The notes beneath the pieces are model-generated. The model was not told the origin of the DNA, did no database searches, and worked only from the letters and a program-made list of their open reading frames with translations. Below are positions 5,373-30,953 of a stretch of 64,000 nt of DNA, one piece after another; position 1 is the stretch's first letter, and each line of letters starts with the position of its first letter. Location: contig JANQLG010000042.1 in NCBI GenBank assembly GCA_028280715.1, forward strand, positions 1-64,000, in the 5' to 3' direction. This DNA is from Spongiibacteraceae bacterium. Lineage in GTDB: Bacteria > Pseudomonadota > Gammaproteobacteria > Pseudomonadales > Dasaniaceae. The translations under genes were made by a program, and so were the position numbers.

Positions 5373-7295
5373 ATGGGTATATTTAATCATTTTCAAGACC
5401 GCTACGAATCAACCCAGCAAGAAGAGTTGTCACTGCAAGAATATCTCGATTTATGCAAAAACAATCCCGCTGTATATGCCAATGCTGCGGAACGCCTGTT
5501 AATGGCTATTGGCGAACCCGAGCTAATAGACACATCTCAAGATCCTCGCCTAAGTAGAATTTTTTCTAACAAGATCATTAAACGCTATTCTGTGTTTGAT
5601 GAATTCTTTGGCATGGAAGAAGCCATTGAGGATATCGTTTCGTATTTCCGACATGCAGCACAAGGCCTGGAAGAGAAAAAACAAATTCTTTATCTGTTAG
5701 GCCCTGTCGGGGGCGGTAAGTCTTCTCTGGCTGAAAAGCTGAAAGCTTTAATGGAAAAAGAACCGATTTACTGTTTAAAAGATTCACCGGTGTTTGAATC
5801 ACCATTGGGTCTATTTGACCCTACAGAAGATGCGCATATTCTAAAAGAAGATTACGGCATTCCCGAACGTTACCTCAATAACATCATGTCGCCCTGGGCA
5901 GTGAAACGCCTGCATGAATACAACGGCGATTTGAGCAAATTCAAAGTCGTTAAACTCTTTCCATCACGCCTTGATCAAATTGGTATCACTAAAACCGAAC
6001 CCGGCGATGAAAACAATCAGGATATTTCTTCACTGGTCGGTAAAGTCGATATTCGAATGCTGGAAGATTTTCCGCAAAATGATCCTGACGCCTATAGTTT
6101 TTCCGGTGGTCTTTGTCGATCCAATCAAGGCATTATGGAATTTGTAGAAATGTTTAAGGCACCGATTAAAGTACTGCACCCTTTACTCACCGCGACCCAG
6201 GAAGGCAATTACAATAGCACCGAAGGTTTAAGCGCGATTCCATTTGATGGCATTATTCTCGCGCACTCTAATGAATCCGAGTGGCAATCCTTTAAAAACA
6301 ACAAAAACAACGAAGCCTTCATTGACCGCGTGTACATTGTTAAAGTCCCCTACTGCCTACGCGTCACCGAAGAAGTGCATATTTATGAAAAGCTGCTACA
6401 AAATAGTTCGCTTAATGAAGCCCCCTGTGCACCTGACACTCTAAAAATGCTGGGGCAATTTACGGTGCTATCTCGTTTAATCGATCCCGAAAACTCTAAT
6501 CTGTATTCAAAAATGCGCGTCTACGATGGCGAGAGTTTAAAGGACACCGACCCCAAAGCAAAAAGCATGCAGGAATACAAAGACAATGCCGGCGTGAACG
6601 AAGGCATGGAAGGTTTATCAACACGCTTCGCATTTAAGATCCTGTCGAAAGTCTTTAATTTCGATCCTAGTGAAGTCGCCGCCAACCCGGTACATCTGCT
6701 TTACGTATTGGAGCAACAAATTGAGCAAGAACAATTTCCCCCTGACACCGCGCAACGTTATTTGAACTTTATTAAAGAATATTTAGCGCCACGCTATATC
6801 GAATTTATCGGCAAAGAAATTCAAACAGCTTATCTGGAATCTTACTCCGAATACGGCCAAAATATTTTTGATCGCTATGTCACCTATGCAGATTTCTGGA
6901 TTCAGGATCAGGAATATCGCGATCCCGAAACTGGAGAGCTACTAGACCGCCCAGCGCTGAATGAAGAGCTGGAAAAAATCGAAAAACCTGCAGGCATATC
7001 TAACCCTAAAGATTTCCGAAACGAAATAGTCAACTTTGTATTGCGCGCCAGAGCAAACAATGATGGTCGCAACCCTGCCTGGAACAGCTACGAAAAATTG
7101 CGCACCGTTATTGAGAAGAAAATGTTTTCCAACACAGAAGACTTACTGCCCGTTATTTCTTTTAACGCCAAAGCTTCAGCGGAAGATAAGAAAAAACATA
7201 CTGACTTTGTTAAACGCATGGTGGAAAGAGGTTATACCGAGAAGCAAGTCAGGTTGCTATCTGAATGGTACTTGAGGGTTAGAAAATCACAGTAG
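5373..7295 (+). CDS. prkA: PrkA family serine protein kinase (YeaG)
   Basis: PrkA is a cytoplasmic AAA+-like serine kinase (some members also described as ATP-dependent proteases) acting in stress and stationary-phase adaptation. From the ATG at 5373 the protein has 640 residues, close to E. coli YeaG (644), and opens IFNHFQDRYESTQQEELSLQEYL as that family does. A Walker A motif GPVGGGKSS is at about residues 110-118, within the PrkA AAA domain, and the C-terminal PrkA domain follows to the end. Upstream in-frame TTG/GTG codons at 5361 and 5370 are possible but less likely. It is first in a three-gene set with the DUF444 and SpoVR genes, the widely conserved yeaG-yeaH-ycgB module. Confidence 0.95.
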   Translation: MGIFNHFQDRYESTQQEELSLQEYLDLCKNNPAVYANAAERLLMAIGEPELIDTSQDPRLSRIFSNKIIKRYSVFDEFFGMEEAIEDIVSYFRHAAQGLEEKKQILYLLGPVGGGKSSLAEKLKALMEKEPIYCLKDSPVFESPLGLFDPTEDAHILKEDYGIPERYLNNIMSPWAVKRLHEYNGDLSKFKVVKLFPSRLDQIGITKTEPGDENNQDISSLVGKVDIRMLEDFPQNDPDAYSFSGGLCRSNQGIMEFVEMFKAPIKVLHPLLTATQEGNYNSTEGLSAIPFDGIILAHSNESEWQSFKNNKNNEAFIDRVYIVKVPYCLRVTEEVHIYEKLLQNSSLNEAPCAPDTLKMLGQFTVLSRLIDPENSNLYSKMRVYDGESLKDTDPKAKSMQEYKDNAGVNEGMEGLSTRFAFKILSKVFNFDPSEVAANPVHLLYVLEQQIEQEQFPPDTAQRYLNFIKEYLAPRYIEFIGKEIQTAYLESYSEYGQNIFDRYVTYADFWIQDQEYRDPETGELLDRPALNEELEKIEKPAGISNPKDFRNEIVNFVLRARANNDGRNPAWNSYEKLRTVIEKKMFSNTEDLLPVISFNAKASAEDKKKHTDFVKRMVERGYTEKQVRLLSEWYLRVRKSQ

Positions 7296-7337
7296 CTTAT
7301 ATAAGCCAACCTGTGTCTAAGATCTAAGGAGTACCTT

Positions 7338-8606
7338 TTGAGCTATTTAATTGATCGACGTCTCAACGCTAAAAACAAAAGTGCTGTTAATCGACAGCGC
7401 TTTTTGCGTCGTTATCGAAAACACATAAAGAAAGCGGTAGCTGATGCTGTCAATAACCGTTCTATCACCGATATTGAGAGCGGTGAGCAGATCACCATTC
7501 CAAACCAGGATATTCAGGAGCCTGTTTTTGGTCACGGTTCTGGTGGCAAGCGATCTATCATCCACCCTGGCAATAAAGAATTTGTCCAAGGCGACAAAAT
7601 AAAACGCCAGAAGGCTGGTGGTGGATCAGGTGCGGGATCTAAAGCCAGCAACACTGGCGAAGGTATGGACGATTTTGTTTTTCAAATTACCCAGGATGAA
7701 TTTCTGGAATTTATGTTTGACGATCTGGAACTGCCCAACCTGGTTAAACGCCAGCTCGCAGGCTCAGATTCTTTCACCTATAAACGCGCTGGCTATAGCA
7801 CCGTCGGAACTCCTAACCAAATTAATGTAGTGCGCTCTTTACGCGCAGCTAATGCCAGACGTATTGCTCTTGGTGCGCATTCCAAAAGAAAGCTACATAT
7901 GCTGGAACAAGAGCTGGAAGCATTAAAAAAAGACGAGCCAGGTAATCACGCCAAGATTATATTGCTTGAAGAAGAAATCGAAAAACTTCGCACCAAGCTC
8001 AATCGAATTCCCTTTATTGACACATTCGATATACGGTACAACCTGACAGTAAAAGACCCACTGCCGAGTTCCAAGGCGGTGATGTTTTGCATTATGGATG
8101 TATCTGGCTCAATGAATCAAGCCACCAAGGATATGGCTAAGCGCTTTTTCATTTTATTGTATTTATTTTTACAACGAAATTATGATCACACCGAAGTAGT
8201 GTTTATTCGTCATCATACCAGCGCCAAAGAAGTGGATGAAGAAGAATTCTTTTATTCACGGGAAACTGGGGGCACTATTGTTTCCAGCGCACTGAAGTTA
8301 ATGAAAAGTATTATCGAAGCTCGTTTTCCGGAAACCGAATGGAATATTTACGCGGCCCAAGCCTCCGATGGTGACAATTGGAATGATGACTCTGACATCT
8401 GTTTTGATCTGTTAGTAAACGATCTTATGCCGAAGCTGCAACACTACTCCTATATCGAAATTACACCTCGCGAGCATCAAGCACTTTGGCACCAATACGA
8501 ACAAGTTATGGCACAATACGAAGATAGCTTTGCCATGCAACAAATTATTGAACCTAAAGATATCTATCCTGTTTTCCGAGAATTGTTTCAACGGAGAACA
8601 GCATGA
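7338..8606 (+). CDS. yeaH: DUF444 / von Willebrand-type protein YeaH
   Basis: YeaH-type proteins accompany PrkA and SpoVR; their molecular role is unresolved. The 422-residue product matches the E. coli YeaH pattern: [22 protein letters not shown] at the start, a Gly/Ser-rich low-complexity stretch near 92-107, a coiled-coil-like acidic/basic segment about 185-225, and a VWA-like C-terminal half with a MIDAS-type motif DVSGSM near residue 254 and [14 protein letters not shown] further on. The start is a TTG at 7338 preceded by a good ribosome-binding site (TAAGGA at about 7325-7330). No ATG fits the conserved N-terminus, so the TTG start is well supported. Its end overlaps the SpoVR gene by four bases. 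Confidence 0.94.
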
Positions 8607-10129
8607 GTAAAGCGCAAACAGTAAAAAAGCAACAACCGATTTCGACAGGATCAGAGTGGACCTTTGAATTAATCGACCGCTATAACGATGCGATTACTGA
8701 AATCGCTGATGACTTTGGGCTCGAAACCTATCCCAACCAGATAGAAATTATCAATTCCGAACAGATGATGGATGCCTATTCCTCTTCGGGCATGCCGCTG
8801 TTCTACAATCACTGGTCCTATGGCAAACACTTTCTGGGCATAGAAAACAACTACAATCGCGGCCAGATGGGGTTGGCCTACGAAATAGTGATTAACTCCA
8901 ATCCGTGTATTGCCTACCTCATGGAAGAAAATACAATGACCATGCAGGCACTCGTCATTGCTCATGCCTGTTATGGCCACAATTCATTTTTCAAAGGTAA
9001 TTATTTATTTCGGACCTGGACAGAAGCCGATTCGATTATTGATTATTTGCTATTTGCAAAAAACTATATTGCCAAATGTGAAGAACGACATGGCATCGAT
9101 GCTGTGGAACAGTTACTGGACTCATGTCACGCTCTGATGAACTATGGCGTGGATCGCTATAAACGCCCCCATCCCATTTCCGCAGAAAAAGAACGTCTCC
9201 GACAAGAAGAACGCGAAGAAATTTTGCAACAACAGATTAATGATTTGTGGCGTACCATACCCTTTTCCAAAGATGACAAAAAAGAGAAAAACAGTAAACG
9301 CTTTCCCTCCGAGCCCCAGGAAAACCTGTTGTACTTTCTGGAAAAAAATGCACCGCTACTAGAACCCTGGCAGCGCGAAATAGTGCGCATCGTTAGGAAA
9401 ACGGCCCAATATTTCTATCCACAACGGCAAACTCAGGTAATGAACGAAGGCTGGGCCTGTTTCTGGCACTACACCATACTCAATGAAATGTATGACAGAG
9501 GGCTGGTAACAGACGGCTTTATTATGGAATTTCTGCAATCACATACCAGTGTCATCTATCAACCTGACTTCGACAGTCCCTATTACAGCGGCATCAACCC
9601 ATACACTCTGGGCTATGCCATGATGACCGATATTCGTCGTATTTGTGAGCATCCAACAGAAGAAGATAAAAAATGGTTTCCGGAATTTGCCGGTAGTGAC
9701 TGGCAACAAACCCTGCAATTTGCCATGCGTAACTTTAAGGATGAAAGCTTTATACAACAATTTCTCTCGCCCAAAGTCATGCGTGATCTAAAGCTGTTCT
9801 GTGCCCTCGACGATGACAGTAAATCAGAAATTGAAATTACTGCTATCCATGATGATCCTGGCTACAATATCATCAGAGAACAACTGGCCAGCCAATACAA
9901 TTTGGGAGACCGCGAACCCAATATACAAATTACCAGCATTGATATTCGTGGCGATCGGTCAATGCATTTGCAACACCAACAACATAATCGCAAACCGCTC
10001 AATGACAATACCCTGGAGGTTTTGAAGCACCTTCATCGCATATGGGGCTTCAATATTCATCTGACATCTCACGAAGGCGGTAAAGTCAACCAAAGCTATC
10101 ATTGCCCCGAACTTCCAGTTGAGGATTAA
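8603..10129 (+). CDS. ycgB: SpoVR family protein (YcgB)
   Basis: This 508-residue protein is a full-length SpoVR family member. Typical family segments are visible: [60 protein letters not shown] and [12 protein letters not shown]. The E. coli homologue YcgB and the Bacillus protein SpoVR (spore cortex formation) lack a defined enzymatic activity, although the conserved His/Glu-containing motifs resemble a metalloprotein core; that last point is inference. The ATG overlaps the yeaH stop by four bases, consistent with translational coupling in the prkA-yeaH-ycgB operon. The identification is firm, the function is not. Confidence 0.94.
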
Positions 10130-13768: not shown

Positions 13769-14125
13769 CTAACACTTTTTGCCGCGCTCAATAATAACAC
13801 CTACGTCCTGGGAACCTCTCACCGCTCCGGGTTTACTTAACCGAAGCTTTAACCAGGGCACTGAAAACTCTTCCAGTACAATTTTGGCACAATGTTCTGC
13901 CATGGTTTCTACCAGCTGAAATTCACTCTCACTAATAAAAGCAATGAGCCGTTTGGCAACTGCCTTATAATTCAACGTATCTTCAATGCTATCGGTCTCG
14001 GCAGCGCGACGAATATCGTGCGCCATTTCCAGATCGAGACTCACGGTCTGTTTAATCTCCCGCTCCCAATCGTAAATGCCGATAATGGTTTCAATTTTTA
14101 AATCGCGTATATAAACGATATCCAT
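13769..14125 (-). CDS. folB: Dihydroneopterin aldolase
   Basis: FolB converts 7,8-dihydroneopterin to 6-hydroxymethyl-7,8-dihydropterin and glycolaldehyde, the step before FolK. The 118-residue protein shows the family start VYIRDLKIETIIGIYDWER, the substrate-binding VETMAEHCA segment containing the conserved Glu, and the C-terminal LRLSKPGAVRGSQDVGVIIER with the catalytic Lys. Full length for the family. It lies between tsaD and folK on the minus strand, a common gammaproteobacterial order (tsaD-folB-folK). Confidence 0.95.
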   Translation of the reverse strand: MDIVYIRDLKIETIIGIYDWEREIKQTVSLDLEMAHDIRRAAETDSIEDTLNYKAVAKRLIAFISESEFQLVETMAEHCAKIVLEEFSVPWLKLRLSKPGAVRGSQDVGVIIERGKKC

Positions 14126-21374: not shown

Positions 21375-21451
21375 GGGCCCGTAGCTCAGTTGGTTAGAGC
21401 ATCCGACTCATAATCGGCAGGTCCCCCGTTCAAGTCGGGGCGGGCCCACCA
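21375..21451 (+). tRNA. tRNA with CAT anticodon (Ile2 or elongator Met)
   Basis: A complete 77-nt tRNA with encoded CCA. The acceptor stem GGGCCCG pairs perfectly with CGGGCCC; the D arm is AGCTCAGTTGGTTAGAGC; the anticodon loop is CTCATAA with CAT at 34-36; the T arm is CCCCG-TTCAAGT-CGGGG. The anticodon stem has one weak outer position (T27 opposite C43). Pairs C4-G69 and C5-G68 are present: in E. coli these are recognition elements that let TilS modify C34 to lysidine in tRNA-Ile2, whereas elongator tRNA-Met has U4-A69 and A5-U68. Ile2 is therefore somewhat favoured over Met, but this needs a covariance model. Initiator tRNA is excluded by the paired 1-72 position. Confidence 0.95.
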
Positions 21452-21528: not shown

Positions 21529-24156
21529 TTATTCTTCAAAAATAGTGTGCTGTAAAAATTGGGCAAGCTGGCCTCTTTCAGTTAACTTTTCAAGGATGTT
21601 GTGGCCAACATTTTTGACAGTAAATAATTTTCCACCCGTTAACCATGCGAATAATTTTGCATAGTGTCGATCACGAGTAACGTTTGGATCATAACTCATT
21701 AATACTTTCGTATTTTGATTCTTGTGAATACCTTTCCAACTGATAAATATTCGTTCTAAAATCTTTCCAGGATGGCGCTCAGAGTGGAATCTCCCACCCA
21801 CACAGGAAACCAACTCTGCTCCCAGTCGATAACCGGCAATAATAGCCGGGTAGCATCCAGCACTACAGCCAAGTACGCGAATTTTTTTATACTGATTAAT
21901 CAGGTCAAACTCTGTTAGCGATTCAATGACTTCATTCACTGAATTTCCAAGCAAAGGAATACCCAGGCGGTAACTTTGGTTAAGCGGTTCAGAAACAACC
22001 AGTAAATCATATTTAGCTGAGTCAGTATGTTGCATGAGTATGGCATTAGGCATCATTAGAGATCGCCCACCTGCTACAGAAAAACAGATCACCAAGGTCT
22101 TGTCGATAGTTGAACCAATGCCCTTATAATGAGTGACACATGGATGAACTCTGTGAGCGGTAAATGGCTCTGGTTCATCGTTTCCGCTATCGAGAATCAT
22201 TTTTTGTATTCTGCTGAACCAGAGATTACATGCAGCATGAAATTTTTTTTCAGCGGTAGCAGGAATAAGATGCTGGCTAGTATGCCACTTTAATAAATTT
22301 TGCATATCTCCAGGAGTCAAACGGTGCTCAAGAGTAGTAAAAGCTTTATTGAGCTGTGCTACAGTTTGGCAACAATTGAAGGTACGCTGAAAAAAAGTCA
22401 CAACGTATGGCCGTGATAAGGTTGTAGTTTCTATTGAATCAACAAACGCTGTTCGCAGAAGTATCTCTTCTTCTTGATTCTGTTCTGGTAATAAAACGTG
22501 TGCGACAATATTGCCAAGCGACCGAAATTTGGTAAATTCCTGCGGTGTGATAATAGTGTTATGGTTAACCTCTAGTGCAACCAGCAAATCCATTCGTGAT
22601 ATTGAGTCGATATCTAGATCACCCAACGTTATGTCAATATCACCCATTTCAAACTCAGCAAGTATCGATGACATCTGCTCATCTTCACTGTTTGTTAACA
22701 GTGCCTGAGCAATAGTTTGTCGAACGAGCTCACTTTTTAGTGACATATTTATTGCATCGTCTCGACAGATTTTGAAATTAGCATTTCTTGGGATTTCTTC
22801 AACGATAATGAATTGTCGAGGACAGCGAATGCCCACCTGATTTTTTACATATTTAATCAATGGTGGCAACTTAGATTTTTTACTTTTATCAAAAACAACT
22901 AAAGCGATGGGGATACTGCCATGAATCGGCGATGCTTTGGGCAAAACTGCTGCATCGACAATATCCGGGTAGCGACAAATCTGTGATTCAATATCCTGAG
23001 GATAGATATTGATACTATTAAATACGAACATGTCGTCTGACCGGCCACAGAGATGGATGCGCTGATGTCGATCCAAGTAACCAATATCACCCGTATAAAA
23101 CCAATTATCTTGAAGCCGCTCAAGTGTTTTTTCAGGCATGCCATGATAACCACGAAACATTCCCTCACAGCGAATAGCTAATTCACCGCGCTGCTCAGGA
23201 CCAAGTGCTTTTCTATCGGGTGTGACAACTTTAACTTCAATACCAGATAAAGGCTGCCCTACGCTCTCGCCTGCATTTTCATCATGAGGATCAGTAAAAG
23301 CGATGGCACCAGTTTCTGTTGTGCCATAGCCTGCTTGCAGGCTGTCTGTGATTTGATTTCTAAGCTGCTGCCTAAGCGAGGTAGGGACATGTGAACCACC
23401 AAGCTTTAAACGGATACCAGATAAAGTAGATATATCATTAGTTGCAAGTAATTCTCGCGCCTGGAATGCTGATACATGTATGACATTAACACTATATTTT
23501 TGACAAATAGCTACTAATGAATCCTCACCTTCATCAACAAATATATTACTTGCGCCCTCGGCCACACAGTATAGACGATGTCTTTTAGAAAAATTATGTT
23601 CTATAGAAGCAAGGCAGAGAAATCGTTCCTGATCTGAACTTATGTGACGATGAGCCTGTGCGACTAAATCATTATCGTGAAGCACAACCAATTTCGGCTC
23701 ACCAGTTGTTCCAGAAGTGGAAAATAACAGTCGCGCTGATGACGACTGTGAATAACGTTTACTTTGATCCTGTTCTAATGAATTAAAATTTATTGCGATA
23801 GCTTCATCAGCAATAAAATCTACATTACATCTTTGCACGGTCGCTTGTTGCTGTTGTTCCGATTCATAGCATGGAATTGTACAGGATGTACTGCCTAGGT
23901 GGATGGCAGCAAGACATAGCACTAAATGCTGTACATTATCATTACACCTAATACCAACTATCGATTGGTTATTAACTCCGTTTTTTTCAAGAATATCAGC
24001 TTGTGCAATTACTGCATGAGCAAGCTGTTGATAAGATAAGCTAATCTGTGGTGAAACTACTGCTTCGTAATTTGGAGTAGCTTCTGCATGCGTAAATAGA
24101 CGCGCGATTAAAGAACAATCAACACTTTCATCATAACTGGCTGAGACAGCCATCAT
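21529..24156 (-). CDS. Fused acyl-AMP ligase / carrier protein / alpha-beta hydrolase
   Basis: An 875-residue multidomain enzyme. Residues about 1-470 form an ANL-superfamily adenylating domain: STSGTTGEPK (146-155), YGTTETG (277-283), YTGD (354-357), GRSDD (371-375) and a catalytic Lys at 462 (PRNANFK). The GRSDDMFVFNSINIYPQDIE region resembles acyl/aryl ligases (MenE-like) more than amino-acid-specific NRPS A domains. Residues about 475-555 form a carrier domain with the phosphopantetheine serine at 518 (LDIDSIS). A 100-residue segment of unknown fold follows, then an alpha/beta hydrolase (about 685-875) with GCSAG (Ser765), and candidate Asp823 and His852. The inferred route is activation, loading, processing on the carrier and release. 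No condensation domain is present. It overlaps the upstream methyltransferase gene by four bases. Substrate unknown. Confidence 0.85.
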   Translation of the reverse strand: MMAVSASYDESVDCSLIARLFTHAEATPNYEAVVSPQISLSYQQLAHAVIAQADILEKNGVNNQSIVGIRCNDNVQHLVLCLAAIHLGSTSCTIPCYESEQQQQATVQRCNVDFIADEAIAINFNSLEQDQSKRYSQSSSARLLFSTSGTTGEPKLVVLHDNDLVAQAHRHISSDQERFLCLASIEHNFSKRHRLYCVAEGASNIFVDEGEDSLVAICQKYSVNVIHVSAFQARELLATNDISTLSGIRLKLGGSHVPTSLRQQLRNQITDSLQAGYGTTETGAIAFTDPHDENAGESVGQPLSGIEVKVVTPDRKALGPEQRGELAIRCEGMFRGYHGMPEKTLERLQDNWFYTGDIGYLDRHQRIHLCGRSDDMFVFNSINIYPQDIESQICRYPDIVDAAVLPKASPIHGSIPIALVVFDKSKKSKLPPLIKYVKNQVGIRCPRQFIIVEEIPRNANFKICRDDAINMSLKSELVRQTIAQALLTNSEDEQMSSILAEFEMGDIDITLGDLDIDSISRMDLLVALEVNHNTIITPQEFTKFRSLGNIVAHVLLPEQNQEEEILLRTAFVDSIETTTLSRPYVVTFFQRTFNCCQTVAQLNKAFTTLEHRLTPGDMQNLLKWHTSQHLIPATAEKKFHAACNLWFSRIQKMILDSGNDEPEPFTAHRVHPCVTHYKGIGSTIDKTLVICFSVAGGRSLMMPNAILMQHTDSAKYDLLVVSEPLNQSYRLGIPLLGNSVNEVIESLTEFDLINQYKKIRVLGCSAGCYPAIIAGYRLGAELVSCVGGRFHSERHPGKILERIFISWKGIHKNQNTKVLMSYDPNVTRDRHYAKLFAWLTGGKLFTVKNVGHNILEKLTERGQLAQFLQHTIFEE

Positions 24157-24899
24157 TTACTTACCTTGAATAGCACGTGTAATGGTTCATTCAATAATGG
24201 TGAGAAAAACGTTTCATCTAATTTTGCTAGCTCAGGTGTTACCGTTAACTCTTTTATTTCAGGCATTTTATTGAAGCCGGCTAGCTTGAGATTATCAAAA
24301 TAGTCACTGAAGGTTTTGTGTACACATTGTACATGTAAAGATTCACCATTACGTTTCCATATCTCGCCTTCAAGTTTTTTATTTACATCAGAAAAATAAT
24401 TTTTATTGCTTGATTCAAAATAAAAAGGAGCTGATTGCTCAGTGCGAACAAAAGGGAAAAAAGGGTGAGGCACACTAAAAATAAAATTCCCATTTGGCTT
24501 TAGCGCATCGTAAACCATGGAAAATACTTTTTGCATTGGTTCTACTTGTAGATAGTTAAACAAGAATACAGCTATGCAAAGATCAAATTTTCTAGTGGGA
24601 GTAAACTCGACAATATTGCATGCCAAATACTCAATACCATACTGATCTATTGCTTCCTGCGAACGCGCCGCTGCAATCATTTCAGTGGATAAATCAATGC
24701 CTAGATAATCACTCGCGCCACGATTTTTTAATTCTCTTGCACAATAACCCTCGCCACATCCGATATCTAATATTGATCGGCCTGTTACATCACCGCAGGC
24801 ATCAAATACCAAAGGGCGGGCAGTAAAATCTGATAGTGAGCTCGGCTTTAAGCGTAACCACTTCTGGGCATTATCGTTATAAACTTGCTTCGTATCCAA
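24153..24899 (-). CDS. Class I SAM-dependent methyltransferase
   Basis: A 248-residue class I methyltransferase. Motif I is ILDIGCGEGY (about residues 43-52), the acidic ribose-binding residue is in YLGIDLS (about 65-71), and the strand-4/5 segments FDLCIAVFLFNYL and LKPNGNFIFSVPHPFF follow. The aromatic-rich PHPFFPF stretch is typical of small-molecule O-, N- or C-methyltransferases, not rRNA ones. It overlaps the diiron-oxidase-like gene by 23 bases and the ligase gene by four, so all three are translationally coupled. It most likely methylates an intermediate or product of this operon (inference). Confidence 0.85.
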   Translation of the reverse strand: MDTKQVYNDNAQKWLRLKPSSLSDFTARPLVFDACGDVTGRSILDIGCGEGYCARELKNRGASDYLGIDLSTEMIAAARSQEAIDQYGIEYLACNIVEFTPTRKFDLCIAVFLFNYLQVEPMQKVFSMVYDALKPNGNFIFSVPHPFFPFVRTEQSAPFYFESSNKNYFSDVNKKLEGEIWKRNGESLHVQCVHKTFSDYFDNLKLAGFNKMPEIKELTVTPELAKLDETFFSPLLNEPLHVLFKVSK

Positions 24900-25725
24900 A
24901 CTCAGACTCTTCCTCTGGGCTCATTGTTTTAGATGAAATATTCTGAGCGCGTACAAGCATTTGATCCCAGAACATGGTTCGCATATTGACGGCAAGCATC
25001 GCGCCGCGCTCGATTTCTTGACATGAACGTTCATCTACCGCTAGCTCTTCTGCGATAGTTAATAGCTGTTCGGCATGGTCATCATCACACTGGCTATGGA
25101 GATCAAAGAATACTCGTTCGTTAACCGTTAAGCTGCTGTGAGCTTTGAGCCCTTTGAGTATTTGACGATAAATACTGGAGACAATTAATTCGGTGCCGAT
25201 GCCGATCGCGCCAACGCCTACATATTCGTTTTCATTACAAAGTTGTAAGAATTGCTTACTCCACAATTGTCCTATCTCAGAATGCGAATAATTCTTCTGT
25301 GATGCTGTATCAACACCTACAGCTGTCTGGAAACGTTGATATAAGCGAGTGTGTGGCTGCCCTTGTATGCTTGCAATAATTTCTTCTGGTAAATCTATAT
25401 CGTGCATCTTTCCCTTTTCTTCAGCCAAGTTACAAAGCAGGGTCTGTTTATGTTCGTTATTGGATAATTGCTCAATAACAGCTGACAAACAACGAATAAA
25501 AGACGCACTATATAATCCGTACTGAACGGCAAAATCTTTAAGAGCTAGATTGAAGTTTGGAAAACCACCATTGCTAAAAACTTGCAAATAAGGGTGGTTT
25601 ACAGCTGAAGAGTCTAGAACTTCAGCACTAATGCGCTTGATAAATACGGCGCCAAAGTGATTATTGCTCATGAAATATCTCGAATAGATTTTTCGAATAG
25701 ACCAGCCGCACAAGTTGAGTTTCAT
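24877..25725 (-). CDS. Haem-oxygenase-like diiron oxidase (iron-containing redox enzyme family)
   Basis: The 282-residue protein resembles the TenA/haem-oxygenase-fold diiron enzymes (UndA, CADD and similar). Likely metal ligands can be seen: Glu in NLAEEKG (102/103), His125 in the HTRLYQRF helix, Glu179 in GTELIVSSIY and H210-x3-D214-x2-H217 in DLHSQCDDDH. This E-H-E-H-D-H order is the family's signature. Known relatives perform O2-dependent decarboxylation, N-oxygenation, C-C cleavage or amination on small carboxylic or amino acids. The start may be the internal ATG at 25671 (264 residues, MSNNHFGAVF), since the first 18 residues look non-homologous and no good ribosome-binding site precedes 25725. 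First gene of the three-gene operon. The reaction is unknown. Confidence 0.8.
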   Translation of the reverse strand: MKLNLCGWSIRKIYSRYFMSNNHFGAVFIKRISAEVLDSSAVNHPYLQVFSNGGFPNFNLALKDFAVQYGLYSASFIRCLSAVIEQLSNNEHKQTLLCNLAEEKGKMHDIDLPEEIIASIQGQPHTRLYQRFQTAVGVDTASQKNYSHSEIGQLWSKQFLQLCNENEYVGVGAIGIGTELIVSSIYRQILKGLKAHSSLTVNERVFFDLHSQCDDDHAEQLLTIAEELAVDERSCQEIERGAMLAVNMRTMFWDQMLVRAQNISSKTMSPEEESEFGYEASL

Positions 25726-26028: not shown

Positions 26029-29000
26029 TTAAATCTCCAGCCCACCCTCTGTCTTATAACCCAATTGCTTTGTTAACTTAGGCCATTGGTACTGACCAAA
26101 GGACAGCAGTACAGGAATCAAGATCAATGTAATGGGGGTGGCAAACAATTCACCAAATACCAAGGACACGGCGGCGGGTTTTAAATACTGAGCTTGTTCA
26201 CTGGTTTCACTCAGCAGGGGTAACAAACCACAAACGGTGGTGACGGTGGTTAAGAAAATTGCTCGCAAACGGCTTTTGCCCGCTTCAAGCAACGCCGCTT
26301 GCACTGACATACCTGACTTGTACAACTGATTGAACCGCGTCATTAAAACCAGCGAATCGTTAATCACCACTCCAGTCATTGCCATCATGCCAAATAACGA
26401 TAGCAAACTCACCGACAGTCCCAGTAGACCGTGGCCAATAATTGCACCAGCAAAACCGAAGGGTATAACCGACATAATAATGAAAGGCTGCCAGTAGGAC
26501 TTTAGGGGTATCGCTAATAAAATATAGATCAGCAATAACGTCAGTAGCATGGCTTTTTTAAAACCCGCTTGTACTTCAACAATTTCAGCAAACTCACCAA
26601 CGGCTTTAATTGTTACCTCAGGATAAAGGCGTTCCAGCTCAGATATCGTCTCTGCCTGCAACCGTTCCCAAGTTTTTTCGGGCGAACTGATTGTACGATT
26701 CTGTCGCCAATAAATACTGACAACTTCGTCGCGATCACGACGATAAACAACTTCTGGCTCACGCTCGTATTCGAATTTAGCAATTTCACCTAAACGCACG
26801 TGACTATCTTTTGCCAACATAACCGGCGTTGCTTTTAATTGTTCAAGCGTTTTTGTTTGAGCCTCTGGGAATCGCACCAACACACGAGTTTCTTCACCCT
26901 TATCCAACAAGCGATGTATTTCGATTTGACCAAAAGCACCACCCACTAACGCGGCCAAGCGACTCTGGTCAACACCTAACATAATACCTCTATCGTTCAA
27001 GGTTATTTTCAGCTGCTTTTTTGCCAGTTGGCTATCATCATAAACATCGTTAACACCAGGTAAATTTGCTAACGACGTTTTTATGCGCTCCGCAACTTGC
27101 TTGGCTAAATCTCTATTCCGTGCTGATACCGCAATAGCAGTGCCACCCGCAGGCTCCTCTGCAAGGGTAAAGTTCACTGCGTAGCTACCTTCGAGGGTGC
27201 CGGTCTGTTGCCGAAGTTCATCTAAAAAGCGATTACTCGGCAAATGAGTTAACGCTTCTTGTGTAAGCTCTGCTGTTAACTCAATGTTTTCAGCGCCCTC
27301 CTTTGCCACGATAGTTTTACTGACTGGTGATTTGGGAAGTTCATATTCCTGCTGTAAAACCTCAGCAGTATTATGGATGGCCTGTTCCAACTGATAGGTA
27401 TTACGTTCTGTTAAAGCATTCGCAACGCCGTGTTCCATGGTGACCTTAACTGTCGCATAACGCCCAGGGATTTCCGGAAAAAACACCGAACTAATATGTC
27501 CTTTCATTAACGCGCCATAGGCCAACAGAATACAGGCTATAAACAGTGCAAAGCTTGTCTTTCGCTTCGCTAAACTTAACGACAATAGGGGTAAGTAAAC
27601 TTTATTGGTGAACTGGTCTAAAGCACTGTGACACTTCTCTCGGGCAAACGCTAACCATTGCGCGACTTTGTTATTACCGCTTTTTGTATGGGAATAGCTT
27701 AAATGGCTCGGCAATATAAACTTGCTTTCAATCAGTGAAAAAATTAACGCAAAAATAACAACGGCGGAAAAACCCGCTAACACTTTTGCCAATTCGTTTT
27801 CAATCCATAACATGGGTGAGAAAGCCGCAATAGTGGTGAGTGCGCCAAATATGGTGGGTACCGCAACCAACTCTACACCTTGCCAAGCCGCTTCTTTCGC
27901 GTCTTTTACAGAACGCTTGGCCTGGTGAATACTTTCTCCCACTACCACGGCATCGTCCACTAAAACCCCTAACACTAAAATCATGCCGAACAAGGTAATA
28001 TCGTTGAGGCTGTAATCCAGCGATGGAAACCCCATCAACCAAACCGCTCCCGCCAAAGATATCGGGATACCCAACGCTACCCAAAAAGCCAATCGCAATT
28101 CTAAAAACAGCGTTAATAACAACAATACGATGAGCAATCCCTGCCACGCATTAGTTCCCAACAGTTCTAGCTGTTCGGAAATATAGGGCGACATGTCGGC
28201 CATGACATCCAGCTGAATGCCTTTGGGCAAAGTGGGCTGCAGTGCATCCAATACCGATTGTGTCGCTTCACTGATGTGAAACAGATTGTCTTTTTGGCTG
28301 GTAGATACCATCAAGGCGATGGCGGGTAGACCTTGATAACGGACAATGCTATCGGTTTGCTCGTAATCTCGCCTGACATTGGCAATATCGCCTAGTTTCA
28401 CACTGGCGTATTGCGTGGTGACAATGGGGATATTCTCTAACTCAACCAGATTGTCCGCCAGAGTGCTGCCCTGCAATACAATATTGCCACGAGCTGTTCT
28501 CAATTCCCCACTTCGATACTCCACCGACCATTGCCGAATCCGGTCAGCCAATGCTTCTAGTGGCAAACCGTAGCGTTGTAATTGTTCTGGATCGGGTTCC
28601 ACCACCAACAAGCGTTTTCGTTTGCCCAGGTTGGTTACTTTGGAAATGGCCGGGTGTTTTTTTAGTGCCCGTTCAACCCGAGAGGATACCTGCTGCAACA
28701 CATCATCACTATCTCCCCCATAGATCATGACAAATGCGGCGAGGTTGGTATATTCATTGCGATAAATGCGAGGTCGCTCCGCTAAGGCGGGAAAGCTTTC
28801 AATACTCTCAACTTGATTGCGAATATCCTCCATTAAGCGGTCCAGCTTCACGCCGGTATTTTTCTTCACTACTACCGATGCATAGCCCTTGCTGGATTGA
28901 CTGGTAATACGATTAATGCCGGCAACGCCGCTAATCGCATCTTCGATGCGTTGGGTGATGCTCTCATCCACCTGGCGGGCCGTACCACCCGGGTAAACGA

Positions 29001-29148
29001 CGGAGATCTCTAATTCCGTTGGCGGTATTTGCGGGAAACTTTCGACGCGCAGATTTTGAAACGTTAAGCCTCCAGCCACCAGGGTAAACACCATCAATAA
29101 GTTGGCGGCTACCGGGTTATCCAAAAACCAACGAGTAATTGTTTTCAT
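26029..29148 (-). CDS. RND efflux pump inner-membrane transporter (AcrB/HAE-like)
   Basis: A 1039-residue resistance-nodulation-division transporter that would export substrates using the proton gradient. It begins with a first membrane helix (FLDNPVAANLLMVFTLVAGGL), has a large periplasmic loop with FPQIPPTELEISVVYPGGTA and ITSQSSKGYASV, then the helix cluster with GMILVLGVLVDDAVVVGESI, the acidic Asp pair in helix 4 that relays protons, a second periplasmic loop, and a second helix block with PFGFAGAIIGHGLLG and GVVINDSLVLM. Length is typical. The upstream neighbour, 10 bases away on the same strand, is its membrane-fusion protein. No outer-membrane channel gene is nearby, so a TolC-like partner must be elsewhere. 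Confidence 0.94.
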   Translation of the reverse strand: MKTITRWFLDNPVAANLLMVFTLVAGGLTFQNLRVESFPQIPPTELEISVVYPGGTARQVDESITQRIEDAISGVAGINRITSQSSKGYASVVVKKNTGVKLDRLMEDIRNQVESIESFPALAERPRIYRNEYTNLAAFVMIYGGDSDDVLQQVSSRVERALKKHPAISKVTNLGKRKRLLVVEPDPEQLQRYGLPLEALADRIRQWSVEYRSGELRTARGNIVLQGSTLADNLVELENIPIVTTQYASVKLGDIANVRRDYEQTDSIVRYQGLPAIALMVSTSQKDNLFHISEATQSVLDALQPTLPKGIQLDVMADMSPYISEQLELLGTNAWQGLLIVLLLLTLFLELRLAFWVALGIPISLAGAVWLMGFPSLDYSLNDITLFGMILVLGVLVDDAVVVGESIHQAKRSVKDAKEAAWQGVELVAVPTIFGALTTIAAFSPMLWIENELAKVLAGFSAVVIFALIFSLIESKFILPSHLSYSHTKSGNNKVAQWLAFAREKCHSALDQFTNKVYLPLLSLSLAKRKTSFALFIACILLAYGALMKGHISSVFFPEIPGRYATVKVTMEHGVANALTERNTYQLEQAIHNTAEVLQQEYELPKSPVSKTIVAKEGAENIELTAELTQEALTHLPSNRFLDELRQQTGTLEGSYAVNFTLAEEPAGGTAIAVSARNRDLAKQVAERIKTSLANLPGVNDVYDDSQLAKKQLKITLNDRGIMLGVDQSRLAALVGGAFGQIEIHRLLDKGEETRVLVRFPEAQTKTLEQLKATPVMLAKDSHVRLGEIAKFEYEREPEVVYRRDRDEVVSIYWRQNRTISSPEKTWERLQAETISELERLYPEVTIKAVGEFAEIVEVQAGFKKAMLLTLLLIYILLAIPLKSYWQPFIIMSVIPFGFAGAIIGHGLLGLSVSLLSLFGMMAMTGVVINDSLVLMTRFNQLYKSGMSVQAALLEAGKSRLRAIFLTTVTTVCGLLPLLSETSEQAQYLKPAAVSLVFGELFATPITLILIPVLLSFGQYQWPKLTKQLGYKTEGGLEI

Positions 29149-29158
29149 TTCGCCCGCC

Positions 29159-30277
29159 TTAGAATACCGCCGTCGAAACCGACTGGCCTTCTAAAAAACT
29201 ACTTAAGGGAAAACGTACCAGCAGGCGTTTTTGTTCAGGGCGATCGAGATATCGAAACAGTACAAACTCCGGCTGCTCATTGAGCAGCTCTATTGTTTCT
29301 AATCGAAGCGCGTTATCGATCACACTCCACACCTGCCCATCGTCAGTCAATACAGACGCCGGCGCGTTCACTACAAAGCTCTGTGCCTCTCCCTCGAAAA
29401 CAACACTGACCTGTTGATCTGCAAGTAAAGGCTTACTGCGTTGAAAGGGGCTCGCAAGCTGTAACATCATGCTGCGTTGCCGTGTAATGGAATCCATCAC
29501 CGGACTCAAATAACGAATAGAGGCTGGCCAGTGTTGGCCGCTTTCTGCCACAACCGTTATTGCATCCGCACGTTGCTGAATACCCTGCAAACGCTGCCAA
29601 TTGATCTCGGCCAACTCCACTTTCACATCCAGAAAATCGCTCGCGGCAACATGAAAAAGTACATCACCGGCATTCACCCACTGACCCGGATGCACCAAAT
29701 CCGCTATGACAACAGCATCAAAAGGAGCTTCGATGCGCGTGTCGGCCAATTGTTGCTCCGCAGACGCGAGTGCTGCCTTGGCCGCCGCGAAATTGGCTTC
29801 GGCCGCGCTAACGTGGGGCTCAAATCGACCGAATGCAGATTTCGCTGCGTTGCTGGTTTTGGCGACATATTGGCGATTGCGCATTTCGGACAAATTGAGC
29901 TCTGCTTCTGACACTCTGGCTCGCGCGGCCTCCACTTCTGATTGGTAGTAGGTATCTAGTAGCGACACCAACGCCTCACCTTTTTTCACCAGGCGGCCGG
30001 GCATTGCGTTATTTGCCACTTCAATCACTCGCCCACTCACCGAAGCTGTCATCTCTGTGGACCAGCGAGCTATGGTAATACCGGTAGCATTCACCTCAAT
30101 GCGGGCATCGGCGGGAATCGCTTCGATAACGGTAACGGAAAGACCGGCAGTCTCAGGTTTTTCCGCCATCGCGGCTGACTGCTCTTCTGCCATTAGCCAA
30201 AGCACTGCTGAGATCAACAACAAAGTGACAACAAGGCTGCCAACTCGACGTTTTAACCACTTCAACACGCTACTCAC
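29159..30277 (-). CDS. RND efflux membrane-fusion protein (periplasmic adaptor)
   Basis: A 372-residue adaptor of the HlyD/AcrA type. It has an N-terminal membrane anchor (LVVTLLLISAVLWLMA, about residues 14-30) rather than a lipobox, a barrel-sandwich/lipoyl half (GRVIEVANNAMPGRLVKKGEALVSL), an alpha hairpin (about 110-175), the returning half (IEAPFDAVVIADLVHPGQWVNAGDVLF) and a beta-barrel domain. The gene is the first of the two-gene efflux operon and lies immediately downstream of a double TetR-type operator (30299-30355), with tetR on the other side. Substrate specificity cannot be inferred. Confidence 0.92.
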   Translation of the reverse strand: MSSVLKWLKRRVGSLVVTLLLISAVLWLMAEEQSAAMAEKPETAGLSVTVIEAIPADARIEVNATGITIARWSTEMTASVSGRVIEVANNAMPGRLVKKGEALVSLLDTYYQSEVEAARARVSEAELNLSEMRNRQYVAKTSNAAKSAFGRFEPHVSAAEANFAAAKAALASAEQQLADTRIEAPFDAVVIADLVHPGQWVNAGDVLFHVAASDFLDVKVELAEINWQRLQGIQQRADAITVVAESGQHWPASIRYLSPVMDSITRQRSMMLQLASPFQRSKPLLADQQVSVVFEGEAQSFVVNAPASVLTDDGQVWSVIDNALRLETIELLNEQPEFVLFRYLDRPEQKRLLVRFPLSSFLEGQSVSTAVF

Positions 30278-30298
30278 CCTTCACCGAAACCTTAATTT

Positions 30299-30355
30299 TA
30301 TGGAACACACTTGTACCATAACTAAAAGCGAGATATGATACAAGTGTGTTCCATA
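30299..30355. promoter_or_regulatory. Paired TetR-type operators between tetR and efflux operon
   Basis: Two copies of one site are arranged head to head: TATGGAACACACTTGTA (30299-30315) and its exact reverse complement TACAAGTGTGTTCCATA (30339-30355), a perfect 17-bp inverted repeat with a 23-base spacer. Each arm is itself an imperfect palindrome (TGGAACA-CACT-TGTACCA at 30301-30318; TGATACA-AGTG-TGTTCCA at 30336-30353), the expected shape for a TetR dimer site. The pair lies between the divergent efflux operon and the tetR gene and so could control both. Confidence 0.85.
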
Positions 30356-30374
30356 AATTGAGAGTGATTTTCCT

Positions 30375-30953
30375 ATGACCATTCCCACGACCAGGAATCT
30401 GGATGCGCGTATCAGAAAGTCTCAGGCGGCGATTTTAAAGGCCGGCATAGAGTTATTGAGCAAGAACAGCGATGCCACGCTGACGGATATCGCCGAACAC
30501 GCGGGGGTCGGACGCACTACCTTGTATCGACTTTATGAAACAAAAGAACAACTCATCAAGGCTGCGGCGATTCACTGCTTGGAAGCTTTCGATACAGCCA
30601 CCGAACACCTCGAAAACGACGCAAAATCCGATTTGCACGCCTTTCACCTGATGTTTAAAGCGATCTTACCTCTATCCGCCGAACTGGAATTCTTGATGGG
30701 TTTAGGTGACCTTGCGGAAGACGATCCTGAGCTCGTTGCCATCTACCAACAGCAACAGAATGAAATTGCCGAACTGGTGGAATACGCAAAAGACGAAGGC
30801 AGTTTATCAACGGAGATTCCCACTCTGTGGATGGTGAATTTAGTCGAGGGCTTGCTTTACTCTGCCTGGTTAACCCTGAGCGAAGAGAAGATGAGCCACG
30901 AAAAGTTAGCTGACCTGGCATTTCACACATTTTGCCATGGCGTCACTCGCTGA
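30375..30953 (+). CDS. TetR family transcriptional regulator of the efflux operon
   Basis: A 192-residue TetR-type repressor. The N-terminal helix-turn-helix is LTDIAEHAGVGRTTLYRLYETKEQLIKAA (about residues 36-64), and the remainder is an all-helical ligand-binding domain without recognisable ligand clues. The gene is divergent from the efflux pump genes, with a double palindromic operator between them, so auto-regulation and repression of the pump are likely. The ATG at 30375 is 19 bases after the second operator arm. Confidence 0.9.
   Translation: MTIPTTRNLDARIRKSQAAILKAGIELLSKNSDATLTDIAEHAGVGRTTLYRLYETKEQLIKAAAIHCLEAFDTATEHLENDAKSDLHAFHLMFKAILPLSAELEFLMGLGDLAEDDPELVAIYQQQQNEIAELVEYAKDEGSLSTEIPTLWMVNLVEGLLYSAWLTLSEEKMSHEKLADLAFHTFCHGVTR

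Follow-up and report, generated by a model that had tools for sequence, protein, structure and literature searches.

The stretch of DNA considered here, referred to as the window, comprises 64,000 nucleotides from a Spongiibacteraceae bacterium (assembly GCA_028280715.1, contig JANQLG010000042.1, positions 1 to 64,000 of the forward strand) and contains, on its minus strand, three overlapping genes for a haem-oxygenase-like dimetal oxidase (HDO) candidate, a class I methyltransferase (MTase) and a large fusion protein that combines an acyl-adenylating ligase, a carrier domain and a putative hydrolase. This layout had been proposed in an original prediction and is borne out, with overlaps of 4 bases between the fusion and MTase genes and 23 bases between the MTase and HDO genes. 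The Pfam matches above the curated cut-offs are AMP-binding, AMP-binding_C and PP-binding in the fusion, Methyltransf_25 in the 248-residue protein and Haem_oxygenas_2 in the 282-residue protein. The trio and its domains are as follows:

21529-24156, minus strand: open reading frame for the 875-residue ligase-carrier-(putative) hydrolase fusion
22753-24156, minus strand: ANL acyl-adenylating domain of the fusion, residues 1-468 (AMP-binding E 1.1e-44, AMP-binding_C E 1.9e-9)
22495-22641, minus strand: carrier (PP-binding) domain of the fusion with D517-S518, above the cut-off of 20.8
21529-22434, minus strand: C-terminal part of the fusion, residues 575-875, a helical stretch and then a putative alpha/beta hydrolase with S765, D829 and H852
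24153-24899, minus strand: open reading frame for the MTase, 248 residues, TTG start
24877-25725, minus strand: open reading frame for the HDO candidate, 282 residues

The trio is conserved as a unit. When 293 genomes of the order were searched with the HDO, 17 were matched, consisting of five strong matches (the window and four others at 50–56% identity), one intermediate match (genome G210, 36%) and 11 remote ones (E 6e-16 or weaker). Family-level searches at E 1e-20 recovered 4 of 112 and 6 of 21 genomes and, as two were already known in each, these provide six new cases. All ten of the other genomes with a strong HDO (50–59% identity) carry the HDO, MTase and fusion genes in the same order on one strand, so that with the window the ordered trio is found in 11 genomes, which disposes of the possibility, raised with the original prediction, that the three genes are never conserved together. 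A 12th cassette genome, G020, has the MTase and fusion genes at a contig end, where the HDO gene would fall off the contig. With the MTase profile at E 1e-40, 11 of 390 genomes of the order were recovered, G020 among them. Among 369 genomes of the class the HDO matched 27 others at 22–30% identity (best E 4.5e-14), the exception being one match of 36% identity that extends over 75 residues only. No HDO match was found at E 0.001 in the nine other genomes of the window's own family, and a search with the MTase through 398 genomes of the phylum gave no match at E 1e-30 apart from that of the window itself. Plasmid records returned two HDO matches, from Indioceanicola (37%) and Burkholderia stagnalis (29%), and the MTase only in Indioceanicola; 360 were matched by the fusion, none covering 80% of it among the eight matches listed. 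Scans of viral contigs with the three trio alignments gave pattern matches and no confirmed relative.

The pairwise distances of the three proteins correlate over the 11 genomes (r 0.77, 0.86 and 0.81; Mantel p 0.0005 for each). For the pair of loci L083 and L084, the only one complete for all three genes, dN/dS is 0.113 for the HDO, 0.078 for the MTase and 0.207 for the fusion, and two other pairs provide four usable values of 0.09–0.19, the NG86 dS having been saturated (-1) for the MTase in two of the three pairs and dropped. The trio genes are, by this measure, under purifying selection. With the order kept in 11 genomes and dN/dS low, the association of the three genes is more than chance.

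The HDO matches Haem_oxygenas_2 with 67.7 bits (cut-off 28.9, E 1.5e-18) and has a complete predicted ligand set, which together sustain its earlier description as a diiron oxidase candidate. Its start is likely to be Met19 (25671), 18 residues after the first ATG, because close homologues such as those of L042 and L083 begin near there. The six metal ligands, E102 (or E103), H125, E179, H210, D214 and H217 (E-H-E-H-D-H, three histidines and three carboxylates, 3H/3C), are identical in 15 of 15 sequences, the window included, and align with the residues that we take to be the metal ligands of CADD. An extra glutamate ligand of the SznF type was rejected: there is no conserved glutamate between the first two ligands (L086 has none), and the site is therefore read as 3H/3C. 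At E<=0.01 the HDO profile has six matches in the PDB, which include two CADD-type 4-aminobenzoate synthases, BesC (4-chloro-allylglycine synthase) and HrmI. The closest solved relatives are 8va9/1rcw (E 1e-15) and 9pj4 (E 5e-10), whereas BesC (E 3e-8) and HrmI (E 0.007) are distant. Whilst the CADD-type synthases are thus the nearest solved structures and share the ligand set, Leu47, identical in 15 of 15 sequences, aligns with the tyrosine that CADD sacrifices (presumably Tyr27), and Ile189 with a CADD lysine (presumably Lys152). A CADD-type p-aminobenzoate synthase is ruled out because of these replacements, above all that of the sacrificed tyrosine; the match to TIGR04305 is 69 bits against a cut-off of 200. 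A single-sequence AlphaFold2 model of the HDO (mean pLDDT 35.4) was too poor to serve as a guide to the seven-helix haem-oxygenase fold.

Published extracts place the E-H-X-H-D/E-H motif in about 85% of the HDO groups analysed (PMC11363339) and describe about a dozen characterised HDOs among more than 10,000 members, with very different chemistries and with the 3H/3C set common to enzymes acting on fatty acids and on amino acids (PMC13108848), because of which the ligand set does not fix the chemistry of the trio HDO. An HDO is also described from Acinetobacter, without the trio gene set in the extract (PMC13232832). In the syntenic pair L083 (9033-9818) and L084 (9378-10199) the HDOs are 70.5% identical, as against 94.0% for the MTases and 93.1% for the fusions, a divergence that could reflect recombination or fast change. 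Another type of HDO adjoins an aldolase-like gene in L047 (7749-9330), L048 (7678-9386) and L080 (7941-9479), the aldolase annotation coming from the Burkholderia stagnalis plasmid (L080), and by eye an EpmA/EF-P-like pair lies nearby in L047 and L048.

The MTase is the most conserved product of the trio (69–77% identity), starting with TTG in 8 of 11 sequences and ATG in the other 3, and its Methyltransf_25 match agrees with the earlier assignment as a class I S-adenosylmethionine (SAM) methyltransferase. The closest solved structures to its profile are 5jdz (‘Methyl transferase’) and ToxA (8rdl, E 3e-28), the latter matching only over profile positions 30–149, the SAM-binding half, and phosphoethanolamine N-methyltransferases are among the further matches. 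ToxA methylates nitrogen, and the MTase may likewise be an N-methyltransferase. An anti-phage role was set aside, since the sole PADLOC match, of the MTase to mad2 (E 1.2e-16), is read as generic methyltransferase likeness. A homologue with 50% identity is encoded in L114 (8195-9893) and L115 (8012-9728) by a gene that overlaps one for a TauD-type oxygenase, and this pair lies near an adenylosuccinate-lyase-like gene.

The ligase, the carrier with Ser518 and the Ser765 that had been described for the fusion all stand, but the alpha/beta hydrolase has no Pfam match in the window protein. The PP-binding domain scores 31.1 bits in the genome search and 25.5 bits in the protein scan, and D517 and S518 are invariant in all 11 fusion sequences, the window included, as are the ANL catalytic lysine K462 and a polar stretch, H187-N188-F189-x-K191-R192-H193-R194. 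For this alignment the start of the L082 fusion (8587), which is not a start codon, was placed by alignment. The same stretch, EHNxSKRHRLYCV, is kept in a separate ligase of locus L129 despite 33% overall identity. The invariance of K191-R192-H193-R194 beside the H187 motif suggests a small, probably polar acid as the substrate of the ligase. Asn188 occupies what we take to be the place of the alpha-amine-binding aspartate of amino-acid-specific adenylation domains, which argues against a standard amino-acid domain. At the C-terminus S765 (in GxSxG), D829 and H852 occur in that order and are invariant in 11 of 11 sequences. No Pfam family matches this last domain of the window fusion even at E<=10, and of the two stand-alone relatives one weakly matches Abhydrolase_6 (E 0.0017; 19.5 bits, below the cut-off of 26.3); it is because of the invariant pattern and this weak match that the domain is regarded as a putative hydrolase. 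Scanning genome contigs with the fusion, an approach limited to close relatives, turned up four partial matches, all to the ligase part. Elsewhere in the window's genome, contigs C16, C30 and C33 have large open reading frames (1043–1905 residues) with carrier domains, which probably belong to other clusters resembling those of polyketide synthases and non-ribosomal peptide synthetases.

Both halves of the cassette are also found apart. Genome G210 (L046) has homologues of the HDO (35–36%) and MTase (48%), and an Indioceanicola profundi plasmid (L079) has the two genes adjacent (37% and 49%), in each case without the fusion, of which there is no match in either locus at E 1e-3. Beside these genes the two loci (L046, 3014-8939; L079, 11914-16411) share an ATP-grasp-like protein, a protein of 280–294 residues and a TylF-like methyltransferase, which are 35%, 41% and 64% identical, respectively, between them. 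No carrier domain was found among the other open reading frames scanned, 8 in L046 and 5 of those in L079. The surroundings in L046 include glycosyltransferase, asparagine-synthase and sulfotransferase genes, and those in L079 flagellin-, FlgK- and FlgL-like genes (by eye), a glycosyltransferase-like gene and a DegT-type aminotransferase gene. The Shewanella sfm flagellin cluster was considered as a counterpart and rejected: compared by description, its PseI-like, thiamine pyrophosphate enzyme, acyl carrier protein reductase-like, 395-residue methyltransferase and ATP-grasp genes, as given in an extract, have only a methyltransferase and an ATP-grasp protein in common with these loci (PMC3765264).

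Conversely, the carrier, hydrolase and ligase are encoded by three adjacent genes in genomes G243 (L129) and G726 (L130, 6621-9298), with 34% identity to the corresponding part of the fusion for the ligase, 29–36% for the carrier and 24% for the hydrolase. At E 1e-3 neither the HDO nor the MTase has a match in these loci of 12.8–14 kb. In L129 these genes are:

6049-6324: carrier, matching fusion residues 500-554
6308-7288: hydrolase, matching fusion residues 588-874
7326-8726: ligase, matching fusion residues 13-480

Since the HDO and MTase occur without the fusion, and the carrier, hydrolase and ligase without the HDO and MTase, the cassette seems to have merged two units, each of which is also found separately.

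The cassette is found in different surroundings and is apparently mobile. The 11 loci represent nine distinct contexts, with flanks in common only between L083 and L084 and between L045 and L085, and a single gene shared by L044 and L082. In the window the following neighbours flank the trio:

21375-21451, plus strand: tRNA-Met(CAT) gene (ARAGORN), 77 bases beyond the trio end
26029-29148, minus strand: RND efflux protein (Pfam ACR_tran)
29159-30277, minus strand: membrane-fusion protein (Pfam HlyD_3)

The window trio has a G+C content of 0.375–0.411, as against 0.50–0.51 for dnaG, rpoD and cysM. Six relatives, out of the eight family members besides the window's genome in which cysM is matched, all have cysM and the downstream tRNA-Met(CAT) gene (3.7 and 1.1 kb apart in two of them), and none has an HDO, MTase, fusion, RND or membrane-fusion match at E 1e-8 within the 13.5–14 kb fetched. 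The low G+C content, the adjoining tRNA gene and these cassette-free relatives suggest that the window copy was acquired at or next to the tRNA-Met(CAT) gene, which is probably a boundary of the inserted segment. The argument from low G+C applies to the window only, the cassette and flanks of the other ten loci differing by at most 0.044 and in both directions. L081, too, has a tRNA-Met(CAT) gene (13815-13891) near the trio, 0.4 kb beyond it and oriented opposite to that in the window; no other cassette locus has a tRNA gene that close. The RND pump genes lie upstream of the trio on the same strand after a gap of 303 bases, with a divergent gene for a TetR-family regulator beside them (26029-30953 in all). 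They may have come with the trio, and with respect to the pathway they are treated as neighbours only. The absence of a transporter claimed earlier thus applies within the trio, but not to its surroundings, where the pump lies upstream in the window and, in L045 and L085, a protein of the major facilitator superfamily (MFS) comes after the trio. Promoter predictions (12, against 14.0 +/- 3.3 in shuffled sequence) were uninformative, and seven terminators were found against 4.0 +/- 1.8.

Our preferred reading, held tentatively and at a little under even confidence, is that the trio forms a self-contained, horizontally spread cassette for small-molecule biosynthesis, in which one module tailors an acid and the other handles it. 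The HDO and MTase would act on a small acid, most likely derived from an amino acid, with the HDO activating O2 at its dimetal site for N-oxygenation, desaturation or C-C cleavage, and the MTase adding a methyl group, most likely to nitrogen. The ligase of the fusion would adenylate the small, probably polar acid and load it onto the phosphopantetheine of Ser518, from which the Ser765-Asp829-His852 domain would release it or pass it on. Whilst the gene content, the conserved metal-ligand and catalytic residues, the co-conservation of the trio and the separate occurrence of both modules are observed, all of the chemistry is inferred, as are the class of substrate, the sequence of the steps and the hydrolase identity of the last domain. 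Several observations weigh against this reading. The data searched contain no close relative of any trio enzyme that has been characterised, so that substrate and order are guesses, and both structure models are too poor (mean pLDDT 35 and 39). The structures matched by the MTase also include O- and C-methyltransferases, which leaves N-methylation unproven. The HDO and MTase genes of L046 lie 4.4 kb apart on opposite strands of a contig of only 9.7 kb, the case for an ATP-grasp protein is weak (20.5 bits in L046, where the cut-off is 19.8, and no Pfam match in L079), and the split form of the second module is known from two genomes of one genus, with one further weak hydrolase match in genome G022.

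The original prediction had the acid loaded onto the carrier, oxidised and methylated there as a thioester and then hydrolysed off. The joining of ligase, carrier and hydrolase in one protein that accompanies the HDO and MTase in the cassette is in keeping with this, and the split genes show the three domains working together, but the modules occur apart. In L046 and L079 the HDO and MTase homologues are accompanied by an ATP-grasp-like gene, and the other open reading frames scanned there have no carrier domain. Tailoring of the acid first, followed by an exchangeable activation module, fits these observations at least as well, and assembly on the carrier is considered rather unlikely. A fatty acid substrate, with the ligase activating it and the HDO producing an alkene or desaturated lipid by analogy with UndA, is highly improbable. 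The best NCBIfam model for the ligase is a long-chain acyl-CoA ligase (PRK06187, 205 bits, below its cut-off of 476), and an extract describes an HDO neighbouring a different type of acyl-CoA synthetase in Pseudomonas alcaligenes (PMC8304167); however, the invariant K191-R192-H193-R194 stretch suggests a polar substrate, and UndA is missing from the six structures that the HDO profile matches in the PDB at E<=0.01. The MTase-TauD pair of L114 and L115 brings in a betaine or other quaternary ammonium product, for which the MTase would permethylate an amine and the oxidase modify the carbon chain, since the best NCBIfam families for the L115 oxygenase (gamma-butyrobetaine, trimethyllysine and trimethylaminoethylphosphonate dioxygenases) act on trimethylammonium substrates. 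Those matches fall far below cut-off (66 against 415 bits for the best) and the pair is a different system, making such a product very unlikely here.

Four of the 11 loci, in genomes of two genera, have copper-type genes beside the cassette, which would lend weak support to a chalkophore pathway analogous to that of fluopsin C, with the HDO N-oxygenating and the MTase N-methylating to give a copper-binding product. Fluopsin C is made by the HDOs FlcE and FlcD plus a SAM-dependent N-methylation by FlcA, according to an extract (PMC11363339). In L044 and L082, the other flanks of which differ, the cassette is followed by a TonB receptor that, among the NCBIfam models, scores highest with the copper receptor (184 and 178 bits against a cut-off of 472); its closest solved structure, in a search made with L082 only, is OprC. 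In L083 CopA, CopB and a copper ATPase lie beside the cassette, and L084 has the same flank. The latter two loci share a site, however, and so represent one event, and no copper genes were noticed beside the other loci, most of whose flanking open reading frames were not profiled. Among 28 hand-chosen genomes the receptor occurs at E 1e-30 in 4 of the 12 with the cassette and 2 of the 16 without it, all of one family. The distribution of the receptor follows that family and not the cassette, and does not back the chalkophore reading, which is kept as an alternative only and judged quite unlikely.

Among described systems, the fluopsin C genes flcABCDE resemble the trio in being compact, HDO-based and associated with one SAM-dependent methylation, FlcA being likened to the trio MTase by description only. 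They differ in having two HDOs and starting from L-cysteine and fumarate, and the extract (PMC11363339) names neither a ligase nor a carrier or hydrolase, whereas the trio has a single HDO, no C-S bond-forming or -cleaving enzymes and, as its other genes, the MTase and the ligase-carrier fusion. The HDO-cupin operons of Iyer et al. (2010) combine oxygenases with amino-acid methylases, and there ATP-grasp proteins exchange with non-ribosomal peptide synthetase or acyl-CoA ligase genes, as appears to be the case here; unlike those oxygenases, which according to the extract are fused to a cupin, the trio has no cupin and carries the ligase-carrier-hydrolase fusion (PMC2922099). In the mangotoxin cluster mboABCDEF an HDO stands beside an ATP-grasp ligase, as in L046 and L079, and the extract mentions no ligase-carrier-hydrolase fusion (PMC13185094). 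Two further papers that were set aside (PMC10811679 and PMC13061610) deal, to judge from extracts, with enzymes of other families. The earlier view that the gene set corresponds to no described pathway agrees with the papers listed in searches of the open-licence PMC literature, among which no pathway with an HDO, an MTase and a ligase-carrier-hydrolase turned up. The trio is regarded as a variant of the HDO-based compact pathways, conserved and apparently mobile.

A broader and more doubtful proposal is that the HDO and MTase constitute an exchangeable module that makes a chemically new methylated, oxidised acid for several kinds of system: for the mobile cassette, with its ligase-carrier-hydrolase, and for a flagellar and a surface-glycan locus, with their ATP-grasp-like ligase. 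If true, one new warhead or decoration would have two routes of delivery, as a small molecule or on the surface of the cell. The whole pathway may consist of three proteins, which lend themselves to joint expression and testing, and the modules that occur apart would serve as ready controls for which enzyme sees which substrate.

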